From positions 1-46,376 of the forward strand of contig JAGVQM010000018.1 in NCBI GenBank assembly GCA_020051695.1: 46,376 bases of DNA, given 5' to 3'. The DNA is from Candidatus Zixiibacteriota bacterium (lineage in GTDB: Bacteria > Zixibacteria > MSB-5A5 > WJJR01 > JAJRUJ01). Under the pieces are notes generated by a model. The model was not told where the DNA came from, did not search any database, and saw nothing but the letters and a program-made list of their open reading frames with translations. Below are positions 35,685 through 46,376 of this stretch, piece by piece (position 1 is the stretch's first letter; every line of letters begins with the position of its first letter). Both the position numbers and the translations under genes were made by a program.

Positions 35685-36042
35685 GGGGGCGACTGGTTTC
35701 GACGGAGTCATTGAGGAAAAGTTTGCCCGTCGAGGTGCCCACTTTGCCTCGCTAAACAAGTGGGAACAAACTAAACGCAGACGATTATTCGTATGCGCTC
35801 GCGGCCTAACTAAGGCTGCGCCGTGGCCACGGGGAGGGCCTCTCAGTCCTGTGTCCCACGTCGCTGGGAGAGGCTAGCTGAACGTCACGCTCGGGGACCG
35901 AGGCGAAACTCAAACCGAGATAGCCCGACACGCGGCCTGTCGGTCGGCGGCGGGCCGGGCGAATACATAAATAGACCGACTATACGGGTAGACGGCTTTT
36001 CTGACGGGCTTTCGGACGGGGGTTCGATTCCCCCCGCCTCCA
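35685..36042 (+). ncRNA. ssrA: Transfer-messenger RNA (tmRNA, SsrA)
   Basis: A 358-base one-piece tmRNA, which rescues stalled ribosomes with SmpB and tags the nascent protein for degradation. The 5' end GGGGGCGACTGGTTTCGACG is canonical. It pairs with the 3' CGCCTCC (36035-36041) over seven base pairs including one G-U, leaving discriminator A36042; the CCA is not encoded. The T arm is a perfect GGGGG-TTCGATT-CCCCC (36018-36034). The tag reading frame lies at 35777-35809. No consensus promoter was recognised just upstream; a short GGACGCGTCC palindrome lies at 35672-35681. The element-like low-G+C genes start right after its 3' end. Confidence 0.97.
35777..35809 (+). other. ssrA proteolysis-tag open reading frame
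   Basis: Codons GCA GAC GAT TAT TCG TAT GCG CTC GCG GCC then TAA encode ADDYSYALAA. With the alanine carried on tmRNA itself the added tag would be A plus this decapeptide. The ALAA end is the usual ClpXP/ClpAP recognition end. A second in-phase-unrelated TAA follows (CTAA). The middle DYSY differs from the common NDENY type. Confidence 0.9.
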
Positions 36043-36078
36043 TTTGATATAACTCTTTATCAATAAATTGATTACATA

Positions 36079-36105
36079 GGGACGGGGGTATTGTACTCCC
36101 ATCCC
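36079..36105 (+). other. Hairpin downstream of tmRNA, possible transcription end
   Basis: GGGACGGGGG pairs with CTCCCATCCC around a seven-base loop, with one C-A mismatch and one G-U. It lies 37 bases after the mature tmRNA end and has no T-tract. It may mark the tmRNA transcript end or be incidental. Confidence 0.3.
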
Positions 36106-36225
36106 ATTCTGGCCGAATAAACTGCAATAACGCCGAACAACTGGCAACGGAAATCGTCACGTTTCGGTCACACTGCTTCGTTGCATTATGGCGCTTCTTC
36201 CTGATGTAAAATATTTATGACAATA

Positions 36226-36266
36226 TGTAAATATTACTTGACATTCTGACGACTATTATTTACAAT
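36226..36266 (+). promoter_or_regulatory. Strong promoter with flanking inverted repeats before the XRE regulator
   Basis: TTGACA (36238-36243) and TACAAT (36261-36266) are separated by exactly 17 bases and end 38 bases before the regulator ATG. TGTAAATA (36226-36233), just upstream of the -35, is mirrored by TATTTACA (36257-36264), which overlaps the -10; the two are 31 bases apart centre to centre, about three helical turns. A similar TGTAAAATA lies at 36205-36213. The regulator it precedes is a likely binder, which would give autoregulation. Confidence 0.7.
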
Positions 36267-36304
36267 GGCTTTTGGAAGCCCATTCAACAAACGATGGTGG
36301 TCAG

Positions 36305-36514
36305 ATGAAGACAAGCTTGAGAAGATTCAGATTCGATCGCGGTGAACTCAGCCAGCAGCAGCTGGCTGACATGGTCTCGGTCTCACGCCAGACAATCATT
36401 TCAATCGAACGTGGCGACTATGCCCCGTCGGTTAAGCTAGCCCTTCTGTTGGCTGCGAAGCTCGAGACGACAGTAGAGCAGCTGTTTCAACTTGAGGAGA
36501 GAGATTATGCTTAA
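36305..36514 (+). CDS. XRE-family HTH transcriptional regulator
   Basis: A 69-residue stand-alone helix-turn-helix protein of the Cro/CI (XRE) type: SQQQLADMVSVSRQTIISIERGDYAPSVKLALLLAAKLETTVEQLFQ contains the complete five-helix domain, typical of the small YozG-like regulators paired with membrane proteins. It overlaps the next gene by eight bases, so the two are coupled. The near-consensus promoter just upstream includes inverted repeats it may bind. The ATG at 36305 is the first that gives the domain. Confidence 0.9.
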   Translation: MKTSLRRFRFDRGELSQQQLADMVSVSRQTIISIERGDYAPSVKLALLLAAKLETTVEQLFQLEERDYA

Positions 36515-37196
36515 GAAGGATTCAATTTTCTGGTGGGCGACAGGCATCTTCGTCTTGGCCTTAGCCCTGTTTGCCGTAAAACAGAACCAGTTTTGGCTGG
36601 CACTGATGATCGGCTCCTATCTGCTTCGCCCGACCCTGGCCTCTCTTGGAGTTGCCAAACGCTATGTCGATGAACGTCAACTGAGCATTCAATATCGATC
36701 AAGCAACATCGGGTTTGCTGTGATTCTCATCGTGTGTGTCATCTTTGCTGTCAAACTCGGAGCCGAAAATAACCCTGACTTCGAACTGTTCGCCGCGGCT
36801 ATCATAATCGGACTTGCAGCCAAAGCCCTGTTCAATGCCATCCTCATTAAGGACCTCCGTAAAACTGCTTCCAGAATTCTCATCGGTTTGGGACTTCTGG
36901 TGGCGTTGTTCGCATCTCTTGACGCAGGATCGTTTGCTGGCATCATCATATCAGTTCTTCCGGGATTGGCGATTGCCGGTCTAGGATTGTTTGCCAGCAA
37001 ATATCCGCGAGTCATCGGCGTTGTCAATATTGTCCTTGCTGTGGCTGCCATGATCTTTCTCTTAACCTTCAAGGAGGGCTGGGGGCAAGTAACTACAGCT
37101 GCCGTAATCGGGATTCCCTTGCTCATCGCCGGGGCCGGCTTGCTGAGGGCGGGGCTTAGAGACGCCGAGATCGCACCAGAGGTAGATACGCAATAG
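36507..37196 (+). CDS. Multi-pass membrane protein paired with XRE regulator
   Basis: A 229-residue membrane protein with seven or eight helices: SIFWWATGIFVLALALFAV, FWLALMIGSYLL, a cytoplasmic VDERQLSIQYRSSNIGF segment, then further helices to residue about 215. The 'DERQ' segment between the second and third helices resembles that in DUF2178-like membrane proteins, which are commonly encoded downstream of a small XRE regulator. Function unknown; no transport or enzyme motif is visible. Its translation is coupled to the regulator by overlap. Confidence 0.75.
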   Translation: MLKKDSIFWWATGIFVLALALFAVKQNQFWLALMIGSYLLRPTLASLGVAKRYVDERQLSIQYRSSNIGFAVILIVCVIFAVKLGAENNPDFELFAAAIIIGLAAKALFNAILIKDLRKTASRILIGLGLLVALFASLDAGSFAGIIISVLPGLAIAGLGLFASKYPRVIGVVNIVLAVAAMIFLLTFKEGWGQVTTAAVIGIPLLIAGAGLLRAGLRDAEIAPEVDTQ

Positions 37197-37287
37197 ATTG
37201 GGGCGCGCCTAAATCCGGGCATAGTGGTTGGGTACTCCAAATACAAGAGACAGGAAATACACCCTCTAAGATTAAGGAGTAATTTGT

Positions 37288-38112
37288 ATGCTGGACAGGA
37301 AAATGTGGATCATCAGTCTTGCCTTTGCGGCTGTTGTCAACCTAATGCCAAGCACTGCAATCGTCGCAGGCGAACCGCAGAAGATCACTTCGACAACCTC
37401 TGTTGAGGAACTGAAGAGACTTGCATCAGAAGGAAACGCTGACGCCATGCTTGAATACGGAGAACGGTTGGTGCAGGGACAGGGAGTAGACTCGAATACC
37501 ACGCAAGGACTCAGTTGGCTTCAAAGAGCAGCCGATGCCGGCCGGAGCGAAGCCTGGTATGATATCGGCTTCGTTTATGCCAATGGCGTGGGCGTCAAGC
37601 TCAATCTGGCGGAGGCAGTGAAGTACTTCCGCAAAGGCGCTGAAGCGGGAAATGCCGACTGCCAGACAAGTATGGGGATGCTCTATCAGGCCGGGGACAA
37701 GATTCCGAGCGGATTGAAATCTGATCCGGTTGAAGCTATGAAGTGGTACCGGCTGGCGGCGGACCAGAACCATTCCGAAGCGATCCAGCATTTGGCCATG
37801 CTCTACACAATGGATCAAGGAGTCAAACTCGATGCCGCTGAAGCCGCCAAGTTGTTCCGTAAGGGAGCTGATCTGGGAAATGCCGATTGCATATGGGGGC
37901 TCGGTCAATGCTATCTCAGCGGCAAGGGCGTTCAGTTGGACACCGTGATGGCATATGCTCTCTTTTACGCCTCCTTAGATGCGGTAGAGGATCCCGAGCA
38001 AAAGAGGGCCATGACCGAAAGGTGCGACAAGCTGGGCAAAGCACTGACGACGGAGCAGCTCAAAAAGGCTGAGCCGCTCATTCGGGAATGGAAGGCCAAA
38101 GAAAAGAAATAG
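37288..38112 (+). CDS. Exported SEL1-repeat protein
   Basis: A 274-residue protein with signal peptide (MWIISLAFAAVVNLMPSTAIVAG) and about five SEL1-type TPR-like repeats across residues 50-235, for example AWYDIGFVYANGVGVKLNLAEAVKYFRKGAEAGN and CIWGLGQCYLSGKGVQLD. SEL1 proteins serve as periplasmic or surface protein-binding scaffolds. The C terminus is helical and basic (LTTEQLKKAEPLIREWKAKEKK). AGGAG eleven or so bases upstream supports ATG 37288; a second Met lies at residue 6. No enzyme domain. The gap of about 90 bases to the membrane protein gene allows its own promoter, which was not recognised. Confidence 0.85.
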   Translation: MLDRKMWIISLAFAAVVNLMPSTAIVAGEPQKITSTTSVEELKRLASEGNADAMLEYGERLVQGQGVDSNTTQGLSWLQRAADAGRSEAWYDIGFVYANGVGVKLNLAEAVKYFRKGAEAGNADCQTSMGMLYQAGDKIPSGLKSDPVEAMKWYRLAADQNHSEAIQHLAMLYTMDQGVKLDAAEAAKLFRKGADLGNADCIWGLGQCYLSGKGVQLDTVMAYALFYASLDAVEDPEQKRAMTERCDKLGKALTTEQLKKAEPLIREWKAKEKK

Positions 38113-38146
38113 TCGCAAATCACACGAAGGCATGGCCAATTGTTCA

Positions 38147-38172
38147 GCCGGCTGTCGCAACGGACAGCCGGC
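38147..38172 (+). other. Perfect hairpin after the SEL1 gene
   Basis: GCCGGCTGTC and GACAGCCGGC form a perfect 10-bp stem around a six-base loop, 34 bases after the SEL1 stop. There is no T-tract on either side, so it may stabilise the transcript end or pause polymerase rather than act as a classic terminator. Confidence 0.5.
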
Positions 38173-38241
38173 AATGGAAATCTGACCCGAATGAAGAAGG
38201 CTGAGCGCAAGGGCGCCAATCAGACGAAGGAGGGCCTTCAA

Positions 38242-38370
38242 GTGAGGACGCTGTTTTGGTCACTAGCGGCTATTGTTCTGATGCTAGTCACTGCCCAGGT
38301 TTCTTATGGCAAGGACGTAGTATCGTTTCACCCGCTGTGTCCAATCGAGATGCCGTTCTTATTCCTGTAG
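38242..38370 (+). CDS. Short secreted peptide or frameshifted gene remnant
   Basis: A GTG start with a very good AAGGAGGG site seven bases upstream begins a 42-residue product: signal peptide RTLFWSLAAIVLMLVTAQVSYG, then only about 20 residues ending in Phe/Leu. In another frame the open reading continues from about 38310 with AVSNRDAVLIPVVEDPWVPL to 38603. This looks like a longer secreted protein broken by a frameshift. It could instead be a true short peptide. Confidence 0.4.
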   Translation: MRTLFWSLAAIVLMLVTAQVSYGKDVVSFHPLCPIEMPFLFL

Positions 38371-38665
38371 TTGAGGATCCGTGGGTACCGCTGAGCTCTT
38401 CATTCGGGAAGGAACGGACTTGCCGAAGACATGATTGTGTGAGAGACTACTATTATGGCAAGATGAAGCAGTTATTCACCGGAGGTCCGGGAACGGGCCG
38501 TGCGGACGGTGGAAAAGCATTGGAAGGGGCATGGTTCTCAGTAGCTCCCGAAATCCGTTTTCTTCTCCTGAGAATTGCAACGGGTGGGCTACATCTGTCC
38601 TGATTCTATTAACATGAACTGTTTTACCTTGGAGTTTGAAGACTGATTAAAGGAGAATCTTGGCG

Positions 38666-38929
38666 ATGGGCAAAGAGATCAAAGAACAAAGTACAGAAGA
38701 ACTAAAGAGGAAAGTAAAGACCGGCAAAGTCATATTGATTGTCTGTTGGTCCGCTGCAATTATCTCCATTGTGATCACTTTGTTTTATGGGAAATCACCG
38801 TCTGTTTCCGCCTATTCGGCTGGATTTGCAGGTTTAGGTATTGTCACTATCGCAATGTTGATTGGTGGAAAGAAAATAAGGGAAGAAATAGCCCGACGAA
38901 ACGACTCACAAGATCGGACAGTTGATTAA
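38666..38929 (+). CDS. Small two-transmembrane protein, unknown function
   Basis: An 87-residue protein: charged N-terminal helix (KEIKEQSTEELKRKVKTGK), two hydrophobic helices (VILIVCWSAAIISIVITLFYG and SAGFAGLGIVTIAMLIGG), and a charged C-terminal tail (KKIREEIARRNDSQDRT). AAGGAGA about ten bases upstream supports the ATG at 38666; a TTG six bases earlier is less likely. No family recognised; it may be a membrane anchor or a small bitopic regulator. Confidence 0.65.
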   Translation: MGKEIKEQSTEELKRKVKTGKVILIVCWSAAIISIVITLFYGKSPSVSAYSAGFAGLGIVTIAMLIGGKKIREEIARRNDSQDRTVD

Positions 38930-39287
38930 CGTCATACTGCTCCCTCCCCATTAGCGCGTAGCGGGTTTTAAGAGAGCGTCTTGTGGGTGACTTTGGCGTG
39001 CCCGTTCTCGCGAATTGTGCTGACTTGACTAGTCCACGTTAGCGGGTTTCTATGCCCAAAAACGTCACAATTTGGTCGCAATACGGCGTAAGCCCTTGTG
39101 CCGCCACGTGAATCTGGGATTCGATTACCCACCTCTGGTCTTTCCATGTGAGGAAATCCACATCATAATTTTGGTGAGAAAATGCAAAAAAGAGTCAACT
39201 TTTGTCCGTATTCCTGGTTACAAGTACGCCCAACCGGAAATATTCGGACTAAGGCAGAACTTGGGCAAAAATAGGAGTAGACTCTAC
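38930..39287. other. Intergenic gap with a tmRNA-like T-loop fragment
   Basis: No gene is supported in this 358-base gap. At 39116-39135 the sequence GGGATTCGATTACCCACCTC resembles the tmRNA T-arm and acceptor end (GGGGTTCGATTCCCC at 36019-36034, followed by CCTC). A complete tRNA or tmRNA cannot be folded around it. An AT-rich segment without promoter-quality hexamers precedes the next gene. Confidence 0.4.
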
Positions 39288-39566
39288 ATGCAGATAAGAC
39301 AACGGGGAACCAACGTGGCGTCAAAAACTCGCACCACAGGCAGCAGGCGATTCAACATCCGAAAGGATCTAAAAGGATACACCTATTTAGGATGCCCCAT
39401 GACCAAAAACCGGTCCCCCTGGTGTTTCCGTATGTGTCGGCCGAATGCCGACGGTACCGGCTTTTGCGGCCGAGTGGCTCCTCATGGATTCAAAAGCCGT
39501 ATTCAACAGGGAATAGAGGATTTCAAAAAGAGACGGGCCGAGTCATCGGCCTTACTTCGTCAATGA
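39288..39566 (+). CDS. Small four-cysteine protein, possible metal-binding
   Basis: A 92-residue basic protein. Residues 27-72 (FNIRKDLKGYTYLGCPMTK to FCGRVAPHGFKSRIQQGI) contain Cys-x9-Cys-x3-Cys-x9-Cys, spaced symmetrically and surrounded by aromatic and Arg/Lys residues; the arrangement suggests zinc or Fe-S binding. It ends in a charged helix (EDFKKRRAESSALLRQ). AGGAG ten bases before ATG 39288 fixes the start, although the frame is open upstream. It has its own terminator. I do not recognise the family. Confidence 0.7.
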   Translation: MQIRQRGTNVASKTRTTGSRRFNIRKDLKGYTYLGCPMTKNRSPWCFRMCRPNADGTGFCGRVAPHGFKSRIQQGIEDFKKRRAESSALLRQ

Positions 39567-39618
39567 AATCGACCTGCAGCAAAGACGTTTGATCATTTGC
39601 ACCAGGGTAAAACGTACC

Positions 39619-39648
39619 GGCATTTCTTTGTGGAGTAATGCCTTTTTT
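39619..39648 (+). terminator. Terminator after the four-cysteine protein gene
   Basis: An interrupted stem (GGCATT-t-CT / AG-t-AATGCC, 39619-39642) is followed by six T on the plus strand, about 55 bases after the stop codon. The stem is short and rather weak, but the T-tract is good and the position is right. Confidence 0.6.
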
Positions 39649-39753
39649 ATTAACCTCTAACATTTTTCCTTTGCAACAATGTCGGCCCGCTTTCGGGGCA
39701 AGCGGCAGTTCGTCGATCCGGACGCCTGCGGCTGGGTGCGCCACCGGCCAACA

Positions 39754-41772
39754 TTACTTCAGCCACTGCGCCAGCCATGCCAACTGGACTTCGTATGCAT
39801 ACCGCAGGTTGCGCAATTTGCCGACCGAATGGCCCTCATCGGGGAAGTATAATAACTTCGACGGCACGCCCATGCGCTGCAGCGCCGTGAACATCATCAA
39901 CCCCTGGCTGACATCGACGCGGTAATCCTTCTGCCCATGGACCACCAGCGTGGGGGTCTTGAAATTGGCGACGAATTTTTCCGGCGAACGCTCCAGATAT
40001 AACTCGCGGTTGGTCCACGGCGTGCCCTGGAATTCCCACTCGGGGAACCAGAGCTCCTCGGTGGAATAATAATCGCTGAGGTTTTCAAAACTGCCGTCGA
40101 CCGATACAAGGCATTTGAAGCGGTCGGTATGGCCACAGATCCAATTGACCATGTAACCGCCGTACGAGCGCCCCAGCGCGGCCATCCGTGTCGTATCGAC
40201 GTATGCGAAGCGTCCGGCGAGATAATCGATGCCGATCATCAAGTCGTGGTAGTCTTTGCCGCCCCAGTCGCCGCTGACCGCGTCGCAGAATTTCCGACCG
40301 TAGCCCCGGCTGCCGCGCGGGTTGATCTGGGCGACAGCGTACCCCTGCGCCGCCAGCAAGTGAATATTCCAGCCATAATAGTTAAAATCATTCAGCCAGC
40401 ACCACTGCGGCCCGCCGTGGATCAACAACACCAGAGGATATTTTTTTTGCGGGTCAAAATCGGGCGGCAGAGTCAGAAAACCCTGAATGGGCAATGAATC
40501 AAAGCTGTAAAACCAGAACTCCTCGGAGGGGCGCAGCGCCACGCGGTCGGTCAGCTTCCTGGCGTAGAATGTCAGCCGCCGCAGTTCGTTTTTGGTCAGG
40601 TCATAACGATAGATATCACCCGGTTCAATCGAGGTCGAGCGCGTGAAATACAGGGCCTTGCCGTCAGGCGCGACCGCCAGATCGCCATAGACCGCATCGG
40701 TGAGGACCTCCTCCACTGCGCCGTTATTCAGGACGACACGGTAGATGCCTACCATGCCCATATCCACCGCCGTAAAATAAATATAACTGCCGTCGGAAGA
40801 GAACATCGGCGACCCGACTGAGCGGTCGAAGTCTTCGGTCAGGTTTTTGCGCAACTGCTGCCGCCGGTCATAGAGGATGATATCCTGCTGCTCGGATTCA
40901 TAGCCGGGCCGGACCATCTCGAGGTACGCCAGGTACAGCCCGTCGGGACTATAGAACGGACGGCAGTCGTTGCCGGGTTTATCGGCAATTGGCTGCACAT
41001 TGCCGCCCACGGCGGGGATAATGTACAAATCGTTATTGTACGACATGGCGGCCACCGGTTCGGTGTTCTTAGCATAACAGATTTCCAACCCGTCCGGCGA
41101 AATCGCATATGCCGGTCTGCCGCCGCCGGCCACCGGCGGCACATCATGCGGCCCCGGCGTCAGATCGATTGTAACTTCGTCGGTAATCGATCCGCTGAAC
41201 AGATGTTCGACTTTGCCGTCAGCCCATGAACCATAATGCCGAAACAGGAGCCGATCGTACACCCTGGCCTCAAGCGGGTTTTCCTCGGCCAGACTGTCGC
41301 GGACCCGGTTGCACGCGTCATTGTCGCAGTCGGGATATACCGGGGAAGTGAACAAAAACCTGCGGCTGTCGGGGAACCACATCATCCCCCCGGCGCCGGT
41401 CGAGATCCCGGTCAGCGGCCGGTAATCACCGCTGTCGGCCATCCAGATTTGTCGACCGTTTTCTCCACCCGAGGAAAACGCCAGCAGCGAACCATCCGGC
41501 GACCAGCAGGGGTCGTATTCGTCGGCTTCCCGGTCGGTCAACCGCCGCGCCTCTCCGCTGTCGGCCGGCAGCAGATAAATGTACGTGGAACGCGCATGCG
41601 CCTGCAGGTCGTTATGCGTCAAAGTGAACGCCAGCGTCTTTCCGTCCGGCGACAACTGCAAATCACCGACCTGATCGAAACCATACAAATCATCAAAAGT
41701 CATCGCCTGCTGCGGGAGGGCGCTGCCCGCCCATAAAATCAGGCAACCCAGACAATTCGCCAAGAGTCTCAT
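39754..41772 (-). CDS. S9-family prolyl oligopeptidase / acylaminoacyl peptidase, exported
   Basis: A 672-residue serine peptidase with signal peptide (MRLLANCLGCLILWAGSALP). The N-terminal seven-blade beta-propeller of TolB/WD-like repeats (about 25-410, for example LQLSPDGKTLAFTLT, PCWSPDGSLLAFSS) filters substrates. The C-terminal alpha-beta hydrolase (about 420-672) has the triad Ser536 in GRSYGGYM, Asp616 in HGQKDYRVD and His648 in PDEGHSVGK. A catalytic-loop HGGPQWCW near residue 450 is typical. It cleaves short peptides, likely in the periplasm, but the specificity is not readable. Its own promoter is not recognised. Confidence 0.92.
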   Translation of the reverse strand: MRLLANCLGCLILWAGSALPQQAMTFDDLYGFDQVGDLQLSPDGKTLAFTLTHNDLQAHARSTYIYLLPADSGEARRLTDREADEYDPCWSPDGSLLAFSSGGENGRQIWMADSGDYRPLTGISTGAGGMMWFPDSRRFLFTSPVYPDCDNDACNRVRDSLAEENPLEARVYDRLLFRHYGSWADGKVEHLFSGSITDEVTIDLTPGPHDVPPVAGGGRPAYAISPDGLEICYAKNTEPVAAMSYNNDLYIIPAVGGNVQPIADKPGNDCRPFYSPDGLYLAYLEMVRPGYESEQQDIILYDRRQQLRKNLTEDFDRSVGSPMFSSDGSYIYFTAVDMGMVGIYRVVLNNGAVEEVLTDAVYGDLAVAPDGKALYFTRSTSIEPGDIYRYDLTKNELRRLTFYARKLTDRVALRPSEEFWFYSFDSLPIQGFLTLPPDFDPQKKYPLVLLIHGGPQWCWLNDFNYYGWNIHLLAAQGYAVAQINPRGSRGYGRKFCDAVSGDWGGKDYHDLMIGIDYLAGRFAYVDTTRMAALGRSYGGYMVNWICGHTDRFKCLVSVDGSFENLSDYYSTEELWFPEWEFQGTPWTNRELYLERSPEKFVANFKTPTLVVHGQKDYRVDVSQGLMMFTALQRMGVPSKLLYFPDEGHSVGKLRNLRYAYEVQLAWLAQWLK

Positions 41773-41882
41773 ACGTGTCCGTTCCTTTCCGTACGGGAAC
41801 GGAACTGAATCGGGAAACAGAAGTCAAGCCGCGCATGGTTCGGGATGCGGCCCCCTGACGGGGTAAACGCGCGAGGCCGGAC

Positions 41883-41915
41883 AAAAAACGCCGTCCCCGG
41901 TTGTCAGGGGCGGCG
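41883..41915 (-). terminator. Terminator after the YXWGXW-type lipoprotein gene
   Basis: CGCCGTCCCC pairs with GGGGCGGCG (one bulged T) across a loop of about eight bases. It is followed on the minus strand by six T, 50 bases beyond the lipoprotein stop. Confidence 0.8.
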
Positions 41916-41963
41916 AATTTTGTCTCATTGTTCCGGAAATTCCCGCAGGAGTTGGTCGAACGC

Positions 41964-42257
41964 TCAATGCGTCCAGTGACCGGCAACCCAGGTATGGCCG
42001 CGTGCAGTTTTTTTCCAGTGGCCGGCGACCCAGCGCCCCTGGGGATTTTTCACCCAGTGGCCTGACTTCCATACATATTCGTTGCCGTTCCAATACCAGT
42101 TCCCGGTGACCCACAGGGCATTAGGACCGGGGGCAGCCGGCGTGACTTCCGCTTTGGCCGGGGGCGGGGGGCCGGGAGCATACACCGTGGCCGCGCAGCC
42201 GGCCAGAAAAAGACAAAGGACCGCAGCAGCCAGCATACCGATCAGCAGCTTATTCAT
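41964..42257 (-). CDS. YXWGXW-repeat-type lipoprotein
   Basis: A 97-residue lipoprotein: signal peptide with lipobox LAGC (Cys about residue 21), a Pro/Ala linker, then a repeat of the form 'WV.G.W...G..Y.WK.GHWVK' and two GHW copies (GRWVAGHWKK, TWVAGHWTH). This matches the YXWGXW repeat family of small outer-membrane-associated proteins, of unknown function. The tandem ATG at 42260/42257 has GGAGG before it; the second ATG has the better spacing. It has its own terminator and no obvious partner. Confidence 0.85.
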   Translation of the reverse strand: MNKLLIGMLAAAVLCLFLAGCAATVYAPGPPPPAKAEVTPAAPGPNALWVTGNWYWNGNEYVWKSGHWVKNPQGRWVAGHWKKTARGHTWVAGHWTH

Positions 42258-42365
42258 CATTCCTCCCAGTTTTTCGACATGGTGAACAGCGATGCCTTTG
42301 TTGGATTATCGGCAATTTTGGCGGCCGCATGTAACCGACATCCAAGTTATTCCAAGCCAAGCGAA

Positions 42366-42392
42366 TAAAAAAACCGGGCGGGATGCCCGGTT
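42366..42392 (-). terminator. Terminator after the membrane TPR protein gene
   Basis: An 8-bp stem (AACCGGGC / GCCCGGTT) with a five-base loop is followed by seven or more T on the minus strand, about 45 bases beyond the stop at 42439. Confidence 0.85.
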
Positions 42393-42438
42393 AATATTTT
42401 GCTGCCGTTAATGATACGGTAATATTTTCGAATGCCGG

Positions 42439-43137
42439 CTACTCCAGCGGGGGCGCCAGGTAGCGGCGCTCATACATATACATTGCCGCGGGTTCTTTGA
42501 CGCGCGGTTCATCGGCGAAGTGGGTAGTGATCAGTTCATAGGCTTGCATGGCCTTAAGCGAATCGCCGGCGGCGCAAGCCGTACGCACGGCAGAAAACAA
42601 CAACTCGCCTGCCATAATGCTCTTGGGATCAATTTCGGCGGCCTGGCGATAAGTTTCCGAGGCAGCGGCAAATTCACCCTTTTGCTCCAGGCATCCGGCA
42701 ATACCCCAGTGCGAGGAAATACTCATCAACTGGTCGTCGCCATATTCATCGAGATACCGTTTGTACAGGTTTTCCGCTTCGTTGAAATCCCGCTGAGCAT
42801 AATACGCGTTGGCCAGCGAAAAGCAGGCCAGACCCGCCAGAGGCGAGCCGCCGTGCTCGTCGATGATTTTGCGGTAGTCGATAATGGCTATGGCGGTGTT
42901 TCCCGAACGCATTTCCACCGATGCCCGGCCGTATAGCTCCTGGACCTCGGTCTTTTTGGCGCTTTGCCGGCCGACCAGCAGGACAATAATCACAATAACG
43001 GCGACAATCCCGCCCACAATGCCCAGGATGGTCCGTTTGTACTTCTGAAATTGTTCAGTTAAATAGAATACGCCGGAGACAAACTGGTCCTGTTTGATTT
43101 CTTTTTTGGTGATCCGGCCGGTGGTCTTGGGAGTCAT
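42439..43137 (-). CDS. Membrane-anchored TPR protein, YfgM-like
   Basis: A 232-residue bitopic protein: basic N-terminal cytoplasmic segment (TTGRITKKEIKQDQFVSGVFYLTEQFQKYKR), one membrane helix (TILGIVGGIVAVIVIIVLLVG) and about four TPR-like repeats outside (ASVEMRSGNTAIAIIDYRKIID, LACFSLANAYYAQRDFNEAENLYKRYLDEYG, GCLEQKGEFAAASETYRQAAE). The layout matches YfgM/ancillary SecYEG-translocon TPR proteins, which help chaperone handover. AAGGG five bases upstream supports the ATG. It is a single-gene unit flanked by terminators. Confidence 0.8.
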   Translation of the reverse strand: MTPKTTGRITKKEIKQDQFVSGVFYLTEQFQKYKRTILGIVGGIVAVIVIIVLLVGRQSAKKTEVQELYGRASVEMRSGNTAIAIIDYRKIIDEHGGSPLAGLACFSLANAYYAQRDFNEAENLYKRYLDEYGDDQLMSISSHWGIAGCLEQKGEFAAASETYRQAAEIDPKSIMAGELLFSAVRTACAAGDSLKAMQAYELITTHFADEPRVKEPAAMYMYERRYLAPPLE

Positions 43138-43235
43138 GTTTACCCTTTCAGTTGATTATCCCGGTGCGCGGGTCGGACCGGCCCGCAACTACCGGTGTGC
43201 AGCGTCCAGCTAGGATATCGGCAATAACCCACCTT

Positions 43236-43264
43236 TAAAAAAGGCGAAACCGCAGGGTTCCGCC
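43236..43264 (-). terminator. Terminator after the second OmpP1/FadL gene
   Basis: GGCGAAACC pairs with GGTTCCGCC (one A-C mismatch) around a short loop. It is followed by six T on the minus strand, about 35 bases beyond the stop at 43299. Confidence 0.8.
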
Positions 43265-43298
43265 CGTTGATATCGACCAGCAACTTCCTCCCCGGCGC

Positions 43299-44765
43299 CT
43301 AGAAATAGCCGGTAAAATTCAACGAAAGACGGCTCTGGTTTAACTTGTACTCCCGGTCGTACCCGGCCAGTTCATACCGGCTGAAATCATGGCCGTTGGA
43401 ACTGGTCACCAACCAGTAATCCCCGGAATCACCCGATGATGCGCTCGTGTATTCATATGAGAAATCCAGGTGGATCTGGCTCCAGTGAATCCCCGTACCG
43501 AAAGCAAAACCGAAACCCATGTTCTGGTCCGAGGTGGCCCCGGGGTCGACCATAACATCAAATACCGGAATATTATAATATTGAACCAGATTATTCCGGG
43601 TCCCCGAGGTGTTGCCGGAAACCATGGGCTCATTGCGGAACCCAATCCGCAAGGGAATCCGACCGTAATTCGACTCCACAATATACTCCGCGCCAAGGCG
43701 GATTTGGTGCAAATTATACCAACTCGTCGGAAAATCGGTAAAGGCACTCGCCGGATTGGGGATCCCCTCGTGTTCGTTTTCCCGGGGTTCCTCCGTTTGC
43801 TGGGTGGAGATGTTGCCGTCCTTGAACTTCCGGAACTGGTAATCAAGGGCCACCAGCAGTTTTTCCGTCAGTTGATATGAACCGCCCAGTCCGATCGAGT
43901 ACGGAATTTCGATTTTCCGTTCGGTAATGAATATCGCCTCCATGGCGTCGTAATGGATATCGCGGCTGACGCTTTGCATGAACGTTTGGTAATCCAATTG
44001 TTGCGTCAAAGTCCAGGGCGAGGTGTAGGTCAGACCGGCTGACCACTTGTCCCCACGATACATCAGCCCCAGGGTTCCGAAAACGCCCGAATAATCGACA
44101 TCGGCGGTCATGTTCATAAGCAAACTGTCAACGAAGGTAATGCCCTGGTATTCATATGGTTCAGAATACCAAGTGAAGAAATCCTGGTCTTTACGGTCAC
44201 CCAGTGCGAGGTGGATACCGCCGCCGACGGTCAAATTAGAGGTTATTTGCGTGCCGAGCCCCAGGATATTCACTGCGGCCAGACTGCCGATCGAACGGCG
44301 CCGCGTATCGACGTTTTGCACTACATCAATCGCCCCGGTAGTGGTCGTAAACGACGCAAAGATACCGTCCTCATAAAAAATATCCTGCAGGCGATAATAC
44401 GACACACCAATGACAAATTCATGTTCGCGCAGGGTCATCGGGGCGATAAACGACCAGTAGCCCACGCTGCCCAGGTTATCGGAGGCCTCGCCGAAGCCGA
44501 CCGGGTTGTTTTCCACTGCTGCATGAACGAGGTTCCAGTTCATCGAGGTCTGTACGCCCTCGTTGTACGGCAAACCTGCGGGATTCCAGGTCAATGCTGA
44601 ACCATCATCGGAAACAGCCAAAAACGCACCACCCATCCCCCGCGCGCGCGCGCCGGACCCGAGGAAATTCCAATCATAATACGATTCGTACCGCAATCCC
44701 TGGGCCACGGCCAGACTCGCCACACCAACCAACACTCCTGTTAGTATAAACACGCGAAATTTCAT
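43299..44765 (-). CDS. OmpP1/FadL-type outer membrane protein, second copy
   Basis: A 488-residue outer-membrane beta-barrel protein. After the signal peptide (MKFRVFILTGVLVGVASLAVA) it has the hatch-domain opening GSGARARGMGGAFLAVSDDGSALTWNPAGLPYNEG, similar to the paralogue at 32.3 kb. A long run of amphipathic beta strands follows, with the terminal strand LNQSRLSLNFTGYF ending in Phe. The frame is open to 44924, but the signal peptide begins at ATG 44765 with a GGAGG site. A good promoter lies at 44820-44848. The ligand is unknown; it shares only the hatch signature clearly with the first copy. Confidence 0.88.
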   Translation of the reverse strand: MKFRVFILTGVLVGVASLAVAQGLRYESYYDWNFLGSGARARGMGGAFLAVSDDGSALTWNPAGLPYNEGVQTSMNWNLVHAAVENNPVGFGEASDNLGSVGYWSFIAPMTLREHEFVIGVSYYRLQDIFYEDGIFASFTTTTGAIDVVQNVDTRRRSIGSLAAVNILGLGTQITSNLTVGGGIHLALGDRKDQDFFTWYSEPYEYQGITFVDSLLMNMTADVDYSGVFGTLGLMYRGDKWSAGLTYTSPWTLTQQLDYQTFMQSVSRDIHYDAMEAIFITERKIEIPYSIGLGGSYQLTEKLLVALDYQFRKFKDGNISTQQTEEPRENEHEGIPNPASAFTDFPTSWYNLHQIRLGAEYIVESNYGRIPLRIGFRNEPMVSGNTSGTRNNLVQYYNIPVFDVMVDPGATSDQNMGFGFAFGTGIHWSQIHLDFSYEYTSASSGDSGDYWLVTSSNGHDFSRYELAGYDREYKLNQSRLSLNFTGYF

Positions 44766-44819
44766 ACTCGTTCCATCCTCCCGCCTGTCATCCGAGTTCG
44801 CACACTCGTTAAACCCTTG

Positions 44820-44848
44820 AATAAATTTGCAGTATCTGCTAGTGTCAA
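44820..44848 (-). promoter_or_regulatory. Promoter of the second OmpP1/FadL gene
   Basis: On the minus strand a perfect TTGACA (44843-44848) and TTTATT (44820-44825) are spaced by exactly 17 bases, about 55 bases before the ATG. The -35 is consensus; the -10 matches four of six. Confidence 0.6.
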
Positions 44849-45062
44849 CTGTTTTTTGCCGCGGGAACCGAGCTTTTGGCATAATGTGCATACGTCGTAA
44901 TCCCCGCGACGCCGCCCGGTTCAACCATGTTACTCCAGGCAGAAAACCGCCATGAGCAAGAGGGGGGGCCTCCGGGGCAATACCCTGCCGGGCCGGTGTT
45001 TATTCCCCGTCAAACAGCGGTTTCCGGTTGCGTAAAAGCAGTGCGTCCACTTGATTACCGCG

Positions 45063-46376
45063 ATGGACCGCATGATAACCATTGCTGTCTGTGGGGCCGG
45101 GACGGTAAACGACGCGCTGGCGGCCCGCGCGGAAACCCTCGGCCGCGCCATTGCGGGCCTCACCCGCAGGACCAGTTCCGGCGGCTTCATCCCTGAGATC
45201 GATGGCCTTCGTTTCATTCCCATCGCCTGGGTGGTCATCTACCACGTCAATCAGGTGCTCCGGACCGAGTACGGAGGCCCTTCCAAGGAGGATCGGTTCA
45301 TCCAGTTCGTGAAGGTGGGGGCCTTCGCCCCGCACCTGTTCTTCGTGATCAGCGGATTCGTGCTGGCGCTCCCATTTGCGGCTCACCATCTGTCCGGCAG
45401 GAAGAAGGTGAGGGTGGGCGCGTACTACCTCCGGCGCGTGACCAGGCTCTGGCCAGCATACGTCGTCATTATGAGTTGCCTCTTCTTGTGGAGGCTCCCT
45501 GCAGAGCCGTCCGTTTCCCGTTCTCTTGCTCCTCACTACTTGATTGGGCTCCTCTTCCAACACGACCTGACCTACGGCACCGCTAATCCCCTCAACGGCG
45601 TCGCGTGGAGTCTCGAGGTTGAAATCCAGTTCTACGCTCTCCTGCCTCTCCTCGCGATGGTGTTCGCCGTGAAGGACGTGCGACTGCGCCGAGGGATCAT
45701 CGTCGCCGTGGTGGTGACCGCGATCGTGCTGCAGCGGAATATGAGCATGTACGCCTATGCGTGCGGACCGCGGCCCTGCCAGTCGGTCGTGAACTTCATC
45801 CAGTTCTTCTTGGTCGGTTTTCTGCTGGCGGATATCTACCTCGCGGACTGGAAGGGCAGGCCTTCGCGTCATTGGGGGTGGGACGTTGTCTGGCTGGCCA
45901 GCGTGTTCGCTCTGGCCTACGTCCTGAGGCCTGTGGTACCGCAGAGTTCGCCACTGCGGCACTGGATGTTCCCTCCGCTGGTTCTCGTGTTCTTCCTTTC
46001 GGCACTAAGGGGCGCGGCGATGTCCCGTGTCCTGAGGGCCCCCGTGATCTTTACGGTTGGAGGCATGTGCTACACGATCTACCTGCTCCACTTCGTGATC
46101 ATCACGTTCCTGATCCGGAACCTGACGAGGACGCTGGTAGGGTCTTCACCCTCGAACCTCGACATCGTGGTGCAGTCGATCCTGCTAGTTCCCGCGGTCC
46201 TAGTTGTCAGCTCCTTGTTCTTTGCGGCAGTTGAGCGCCCCACGATGAACAAGCGATGGCCACAGTTGCTGGCTGCGTGGGTGAGGCAACTCGCGTCGGG
46301 ACGGCGGACACGAGCTGTCGCGCTCCTTTCCGGCGCTGAGTCGGAGCTTCGGCCGGCCGCGCCGACCGCCCTTGGG
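45063..46376 (+). CDS. Acyltransferase family 3 (OafA/YrhL-type) membrane protein, cut by the window edge
   Basis: The frame is open without stop from ATG 45063 to the end of the window (438 residues so far). It is a polytopic membrane acyltransferase: EIDGLRFIPIAWVVIYHVN with the catalytic His61, PHLFFVISGFVLALPF, YYLRRVTRLWPAYVVI, PLNGVAWSLEVEIQFYALLPLLA, then several further helices. The family O-acetylates or O-acylates sugars of surface polysaccharides. The first 45 residues are atypically long before the first conserved block, so the true start is uncertain; an in-frame TAA about 25 bases upstream limits it. It prefers CTC for Leu and TTC for Phe more than its neighbours do. No clear ribosome site. 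A long antisense frame is a shadow of it. Confidence 0.87.
   Translation, partial: MDRMITIAVCGAGTVNDALAARAETLGRAIAGLTRRTSSGGFIPEIDGLRFIPIAWVVIYHVNQVLRTEYGGPSKEDRFIQFVKVGAFAPHLFFVISGFVLALPFAAHHLSGRKKVRVGAYYLRRVTRLWPAYVVIMSCLFLWRLPAEPSVSRSLAPHYLIGLLFQHDLTYGTANPLNGVAWSLEVEIQFYALLPLLAMVFAVKDVRLRRGIIVAVVVTAIVLQRNMSMYAYACGPRPCQSVVNFIQFFLVGFLLADIYLADWKGRPSRHWGWDVVWLASVFALAYVLRPVVPQSSPLRHWMFPPLVLVFFLSALRGAAMSRVLRAPVIFTVGGMCYTIYLLHFVIITFLIRNLTRTLVGSSPSNLDIVVQSILLVPAVLVVSSLFFAAVERPTMNKRWPQLLAAWVRQLASGRRTRAVALLSGAESELRPAAPTALG

Follow-up and report, generated by a model that had tools for sequence, protein, structure and literature searches.

The window analysed here is a stretch of 46,376 nucleotides from a Candidatus Zixiibacteriota bacterium, in which a group of low-G+C genes lies downstream of the tmRNA gene ssrA. 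The locus raises the question of what this block represents and by which means it came to lie there. An earlier note had delimited the block at 36043-39700 and offered two readings: a decayed island at the tmRNA 3' end, or a small undescribed defence/stress cassette.

At the level of base composition, G+C does drop directly after the tmRNA, from about 57% on either side (57.4% in 1-35684 and 57.1% in 39754-46376) to 50.1% in 36043-39137 and 49.1% in 39138-39750. Codon usage was scored as log-odds with the 19 core genes of the window as reference. All five block genes tested range from -0.05 to -0.19, each of them under every core gene of the window (core genes: +0.18, sd 0.044). Composition and codon usage of the block are foreign; both checks, proposed in the earlier note, set it apart from the core genes. 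In the Rfam search, there was no credible structured RNA besides the tmRNA.

The same site was compared among related genomes. In G001, a member of the same family, DNA homology spans the M29 peptidase gene and ssrA and stops at window position 36042; the sequence past ssrA is unrelated to the block and contains, judged by eye, a MarC-like gene. In G073 and G074, which share a genus, homology likewise stops about 20 nt past ssrA. The corresponding site of G001 does not contain the block, as expected of an island; it is neither common to relatives, in agreement with what insertion predicts, nor core-like in composition. The S9 peptidase gene was rejected as a fixed right flank: no homolog lies near ssrA in relatives, and therefore the ssrA-to-S9 interval can be compared on the left side only.

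The boundaries of the block emerge from a set of 58 genomes, i.e. the window's own genome and 57 relatives. Several of them have a further copy of the tmRNA 3' end downstream of ssrA, with a conserved stretch before it, and this stretch is also found in the window. An nhmmer right-end model made without the window sequence (GTCACAATTTGGTCACAATAnGGTGTAAGTCCTTGTGCCACAACGCGAGTATGGGGTTCGATTCCCCCCACCTCCA) matches positions 39058-39135 with an E-value of 5.2e-18 (64.3 bits); here the far boundary carries a copy of the target 3' end, whose core is decayed. A left-end HMM, likewise built without the window sequence, matches 36045-36178 (E 4.3e-17). When profile R1, whose 24 rows include the window sequence, is run against the whole own genome, it gives a single strong match (70.7 bits), followed by ssrA itself (20.1 bits) and a match of 17.3 bits. 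Both ends are matched by models, and the element therefore extends from 36043 to about 39137 (~3.1 kb); it is shorter than the block of the earlier note, and the Cys-motif gene lies beyond it. Judged from these matches, both ends belong to end families conserved across Zixibacteria. The features of the locus are:

35685-36042, + strand: ssrA (tmRNA) gene (ARAGORN, Rfam)
36018-36042: attachment core at the left boundary, the last ~25 bases of ssrA, GGGGGTTCGATTCCCCCCGCCTCCA; the core is repeated at the right ends of relatives' cassettes
36043-36178, + strand: left end of the cassette; contains GGACGGGGGTATTGTACTCCCATCCC and, near 36161-36172, a GGTCACA arm site (left-end HMM)
36305-36514, + strand: XRE-type regulator gene, 69 aa (HTH_3, E 2e-11)
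36507-37196, + strand: multi-TM membrane protein gene, 229 aa, overlapping the XRE gene (weak DUF2178 likeness, E 0.014, below cut-off)
37288-38112, + strand: SEL1-repeat secreted protein gene, 274 aa (Sel1, E 7.5e-30, 5 repeats)
38242-38370, + strand: short secreted-looking reading frame, ~42 aa, probably truncated (from the sequence)
about 38415-38560, + strand: remnant of the start of an IS3-type transposase gene, reading MARPSRYSPEVRQRAVRMVEEH in relatives
38666-38929, + strand: two-TM small protein gene, 87 aa (DNA identity to G037 and G027)
39058-39137, + strand: cassette right end with arm repeats GTCACAATTTGGTCGCAAT, a TTGTGCC arm and the decayed core GGATTCGATTACCCACCTCTGG (nhmmer)
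39315-39566, + strand: Cys-motif small protein gene, beyond the cassette right end (from the sequence; patchy spread)

On the minus strand, a reading frame at 35885-36160 runs antisense to ssrA (translation MEAGGIEPPSESPSEKPSTRIVGL...). Similar frames lie antisense to cassette ends and are likely to be spurious proteins in annotations.

The genes named in the earlier note (XRE, multi-TM, SEL1, two-TM and Cys-motif) are real. XRE homologs 81-88% identical occur in five relatives, and homologs of the multi-TM protein adjoin XRE in G011, G054, G043, G125 and G050; in two of these five genomes with the pair, G011 and G054, the SEL1 gene comes next as well. The XRE gene of G050 starts about 240 bp past a right end of the cassette family, not far from the 263 bp that separate ssrA and XRE in the window. 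If a guess is allowed, the task of the XRE, membrane and SEL1 proteins is most likely sensing or stress regulation. Upstream of XRE, the window contains an inverted repeat at 36226-36264 (TGTAAATATTACTTGACA / TGACGACTATTATTTACA), and the XRE homologs in G043, G011, G054 and G050 have TTGACA...TGTAA or TGCAA stretches in front of them; these elements probably act as promoter and operator.

What the earlier note called a broken secreted peptide stands in part: the short frame at 38242-38370 is there, and no family match was found for it, while the stretch that follows has to be corrected to a transposase gene fragment. This fragment (38415-38560) has copies in G014 and G044 with a DNA identity of 82-85%; we take it to be of the IS3 family from the translated relatives, not from a profile search. 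Positions 38560-38906 are 90-92% identical in G037 and G027, which belong to two other families, and from this identity we conclude that the two-TM gene moved recently. The Cys-motif gene has a patchy distribution (9 of 132 genomes) and is also found directly past a right end in G084:C166; it may be left over from an older cassette that has lost a recognisable right end. Its protein, which contains ...YLGCPMTKNRSPWCFRMCRPNADGTGFCGRVAPHG..., is assigned to no family; it resembles an rSAM-modified Cys-rich RiPP family weakly and below the cut-off (E 0.007).

The cassette of the window is not an isolated case. A 26-base right-end arm pattern occurs in 40 of 132 genomes, with zero hits for the reversed-pattern control among the matches listed, and the right-end profile finds the family in 73 of the 132 Zixibacteria genomes (the class-level and phylum-level genome sets are identical). 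Named records with the arm pattern are mostly Candidatus Zixiibacteriota and GN15. Three contigs with the right-end pattern (L235, L237, L242) are labelled Aminicenantes, Bacteroidetes and KSB1; they represent either a spread beyond the phylum or misplaced contigs. Viral contigs gave no match to the right-end pattern, and a viral origin was rejected on this ground.

The cassettes form tandem, same-orientation arrays downstream of ssrA; examples are G061:C119, with five consecutive right ends, and G066:C3, where ssrA is followed by four. Of the 40 right ends at 42 tmRNA loci, every one is found downstream of ssrA and on its strand, with none upstream or on the opposite strand. Since the sequence available downstream was about six times that upstream, the agreement in strand carries more weight in this result than the position. 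Some right ends are located away from ssrA. The 72 cassettes that could be delimited measure 179 to 11744 bp (median ~2.4 kb) and possess mostly one to three reading frames. Their cargo is mixed, including beta-lactamase-fold proteins, kinases (some of them defence-like), phosphotransferases, peptidases, methyltransferases and TPR proteins; conjugation or phage families are not among the top cargo families. Two cassettes of 196 and 179 bp (L054 13300-13092; L061 31-243) are free of cargo and consist of both ends with one pair of arm repeats in common. In full cassettes, the cargo is bracketed by two copies of GGTCACAATTTGGTCACA, and for this reason cargo loss by recombination between the two copies is possible.

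Some right ends deviate from the common form. The core copy contains a T-loop insert of ~20-30 nt in L139, L123, L125, L137, L131, L217, L218 and L057; inserts such as CGTCAACCAGGCTATGCCTG or TTTGTTTCGCCATGCTCAGCATCTGCGACGA stand between GGGG and TTCGATTCC, or replace TTCGATTCC. At ssrA-type cores, there is also another kind of right end, which ends ...CCCATTTTCGATTCCCCCCACCTCCA or CCCAATTCGATTCC... and is without GGTCACAA arms (L215 6818, L227 18399, L229 7009, L254 3645, L262 4905); it may be part of elements with an integrase, such as the one in G108. Furthermore, cassette right-end arms precede other cores (L124 8065, L256 6275 and 12544, L257 10185), one of them similar to a tRNA-Leu 3' end (GGGGTTCGAGTCCCCCCTTCGGCA) and one ending GTAGCGCTACCA; therefore, the arm is not confined to tmRNA.

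The earlier note had seen no integrase in the block, and we found none there either. A profile built from 88 integrase sequences detects a tyrosine integrase in none of the 72 cassettes, even in units with perfect ends. That the integrase is missing cannot be put down to a loss at this locus; all cassettes of the family are without one. A candidate enzyme is present in other genomes: G044:C31 encodes a 364-aa tyrosine integrase whose gene starts about 110 bp past the tmRNA 3' end. Its closest relatives (65-73% identity; G108, G098, G103) also adjoin ssrA, while relatives at 62% identity or less are almost all located beside tRNA-Ser, -Leu, -Met, -Gln or -His genes. Between target and integrase gene, there are paired TTGTGnCCA-like repeats, which come near to the cassettes' GGTCACAA arms when these are reverse-complemented. 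The att-like end met first past ssrA and the integrase of G103, at a distance of 35 kb, belongs to the right ends of the cassette family; the one after the integrase element of G108 is a different right end. Cassettes and integrase-bearing elements do not have the same left ends. The clade occurs in four genomes only, compared to 73 with cassettes, and the window's own genome has no close relative of it. Its link to the cassettes is one by sequence only and in a single case, G103. The clade of ~365-aa integrases adjacent to ssrA is the best candidate for the enzyme that acts on the cassettes in trans, and moderately likely to be it.

Elements with integrases of the tRNA type were considered as a source of a common right end, and this was rejected: among 11 elements, there is one clear distal end, which is only weakly similar. 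At L275 (G048:C17), by a tRNA-Gln integrase, a right-end-like arm stands before the reverse-complemented 3' end of tRNA-Gln, with arm and core orientation opposite to that of the ssrA cassettes. Six contigs (G104:C120, G039:C78, G055:C28, G059:C43, G048:C9, G104:C129) have a serine recombinase no more than ~1 kb away from a tyrosine-integrase match, in what looks like a recurring pair.

We consider it very probable that 36043-39137 is a single decayed, non-autonomous integrative cassette. The decayed island at the tmRNA 3' end thus holds, with both ends identified and the block absent from the sister genome; by its ends, the block appears to be a degraded representative of a family of small mobile cassettes found throughout the phylum. 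Because its right core is mutated, the genome is without an integrase of the clade and an IS remnant lies inside, the copy in the window is probably stranded and inactive. In the mechanism that we propose, a tyrosine recombinase from elsewhere would bind the repeated GGTCACAA and TTGTGCC arm sites, and strands would be exchanged within the T-loop portion of the 3' end of tmRNA. A circular cassette would be inserted and ssrA regenerated, and each insertion would displace older cassettes away from ssrA. A further-reaching reading, doubtful rather than probable, is an integron-like capture of genes on the tmRNA gene, in which a phage-type tyrosine recombinase acting in trans would insert small circles with standard ends serially and the arrays would serve as a shared accessory pool.

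A rival explanation, which we also regard as doubtful rather than probable, is as follows: the units could be remnants of ordinary prophages or integrative elements that target ssrA, from which the integrase was deleted, so that the arrays are stacked classical CIMEs. Such deletion gives rise to CIMEs in streptococci (PMC7563491), integrase-bearing elements exist at ssrA in four Zixibacteria genomes, and the window copy is decayed. However, a tyrosine integrase is found in none of the 72 units, the cassette left ends are unlike those of the integrase-bearing elements, and the top cargo families include neither conjugation nor phage families. We consider it unlikely that the genes act together as a defence or stress cassette whose place beside ssrA is incidental. 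The XRE-TM-SEL1 block does recur in G011 and G054, and some other cassettes carry defence-like kinases, but a PADLOC scan of the block gave only generic HTH matches and one weak 2TM match, hence no recognisable defence system, the two-TM gene has a separate distribution, and the ends indicate insertion at ssrA. Core or vertically inherited lineage genes next to a chance repeat of the tmRNA end are highly improbable: a 13-base core alone, with two mismatches, is not significant in the window, but the full right and left ends are, the scores of the nhmmer right-end model and of profile R1 rule out a chance repeat, and synteny (absence from the sister genome) together with the foreign composition rules out vertical core genes.

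Integrons are the best-known case of arrays built from small gene cassettes. In integrons and CALINs, small cassettes of one to three genes with diverse cargo form same-orientation arrays and the recombinase acts in trans. The Zixibacteria cassettes are alike in their tandem, same-orientation arrangement, median length of 2.4 kb and mostly one to three reading frames, but their sites combine arms of the phage type with a core from the 3' end of tmRNA; the likeness is drawn from array behaviour, not from integron-specific models. In this sense, the family resembles a loose counterpart of integrons.

In Dehalococcoides, the borders of tandem ssrA islands are formed by ssrA or a repeated copy of its 3' end, with insertion in the T-loop (McMurdie et al. 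2011, PMC3146451). 15 of these 31 islands are without integration genes and 16 contain the serine recombinase DsiB; the repeat is 20 bp long and the host range one genus (PMC3146451). Common to both systems are several units in tandem downstream of ssrA and the occurrence of units without integration genes, whereas the Zixibacteria units are smaller, conserved at both ends over ~80-130 bp, without recombinase and phylum-wide. A serine recombinase module of the Dehalococcoides type was not found: the window's own genome (G000) has no PF00239 match, and the serine recombinases of the other genomes searched are all located off the array coordinates. Streptococcal CIMEs and microCIMEs are att-flanked, possess no recombination genes and are stacked at one target; cargo-free forms measure 130-220 bp (PMC7563491), similar to the empty cassettes of 179-196 bp described here. 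As in CIMEs, both att ends are kept and recombination genes are absent, according to the ends found and the negative tyrosine integrase profile. On an origin from ICEs or IMEs, the G103 element has the right end of the family, but the left ends differ. CIMEs adjoin the ICEs or IMEs of origin, usually with one or two per site (PMC7563491), whereas the Zixibacteria arrays reach five or more units, mostly without an integrase element alongside. Tycheposons are 4-200 kb long, with tRNA-end borders and the tyrosine recombinase xerD (as described in PMC10872708). They share with our cassettes the organization of cargo elements bounded by an RNA gene end and the link to a tyrosine recombinase, but the border is tmRNA in Zixibacteria and the units are ~2.4 kb long and without recombinase.

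Hence, tandem ssrA islands (Dehalococcoides) and recombinase-less att-flanked elements (streptococci) were known before, and we found no description of such a family in the literature on tmRNA cassette arrays or Zixibacteria mobile elements. New are uniform small cassettes, conserved at both ends, phylum-wide and nearly always without a recombinase. If it is true that an ordinary integrase of the tRNA/tmRNA type builds such arrays throughout an uncultured phylum, cassette-style gene sharing would not be specific to integrons. The conserved ends provide a direct handle for finding accessory genes of Zixibacteria and for testing which recombinase moves the cassettes.
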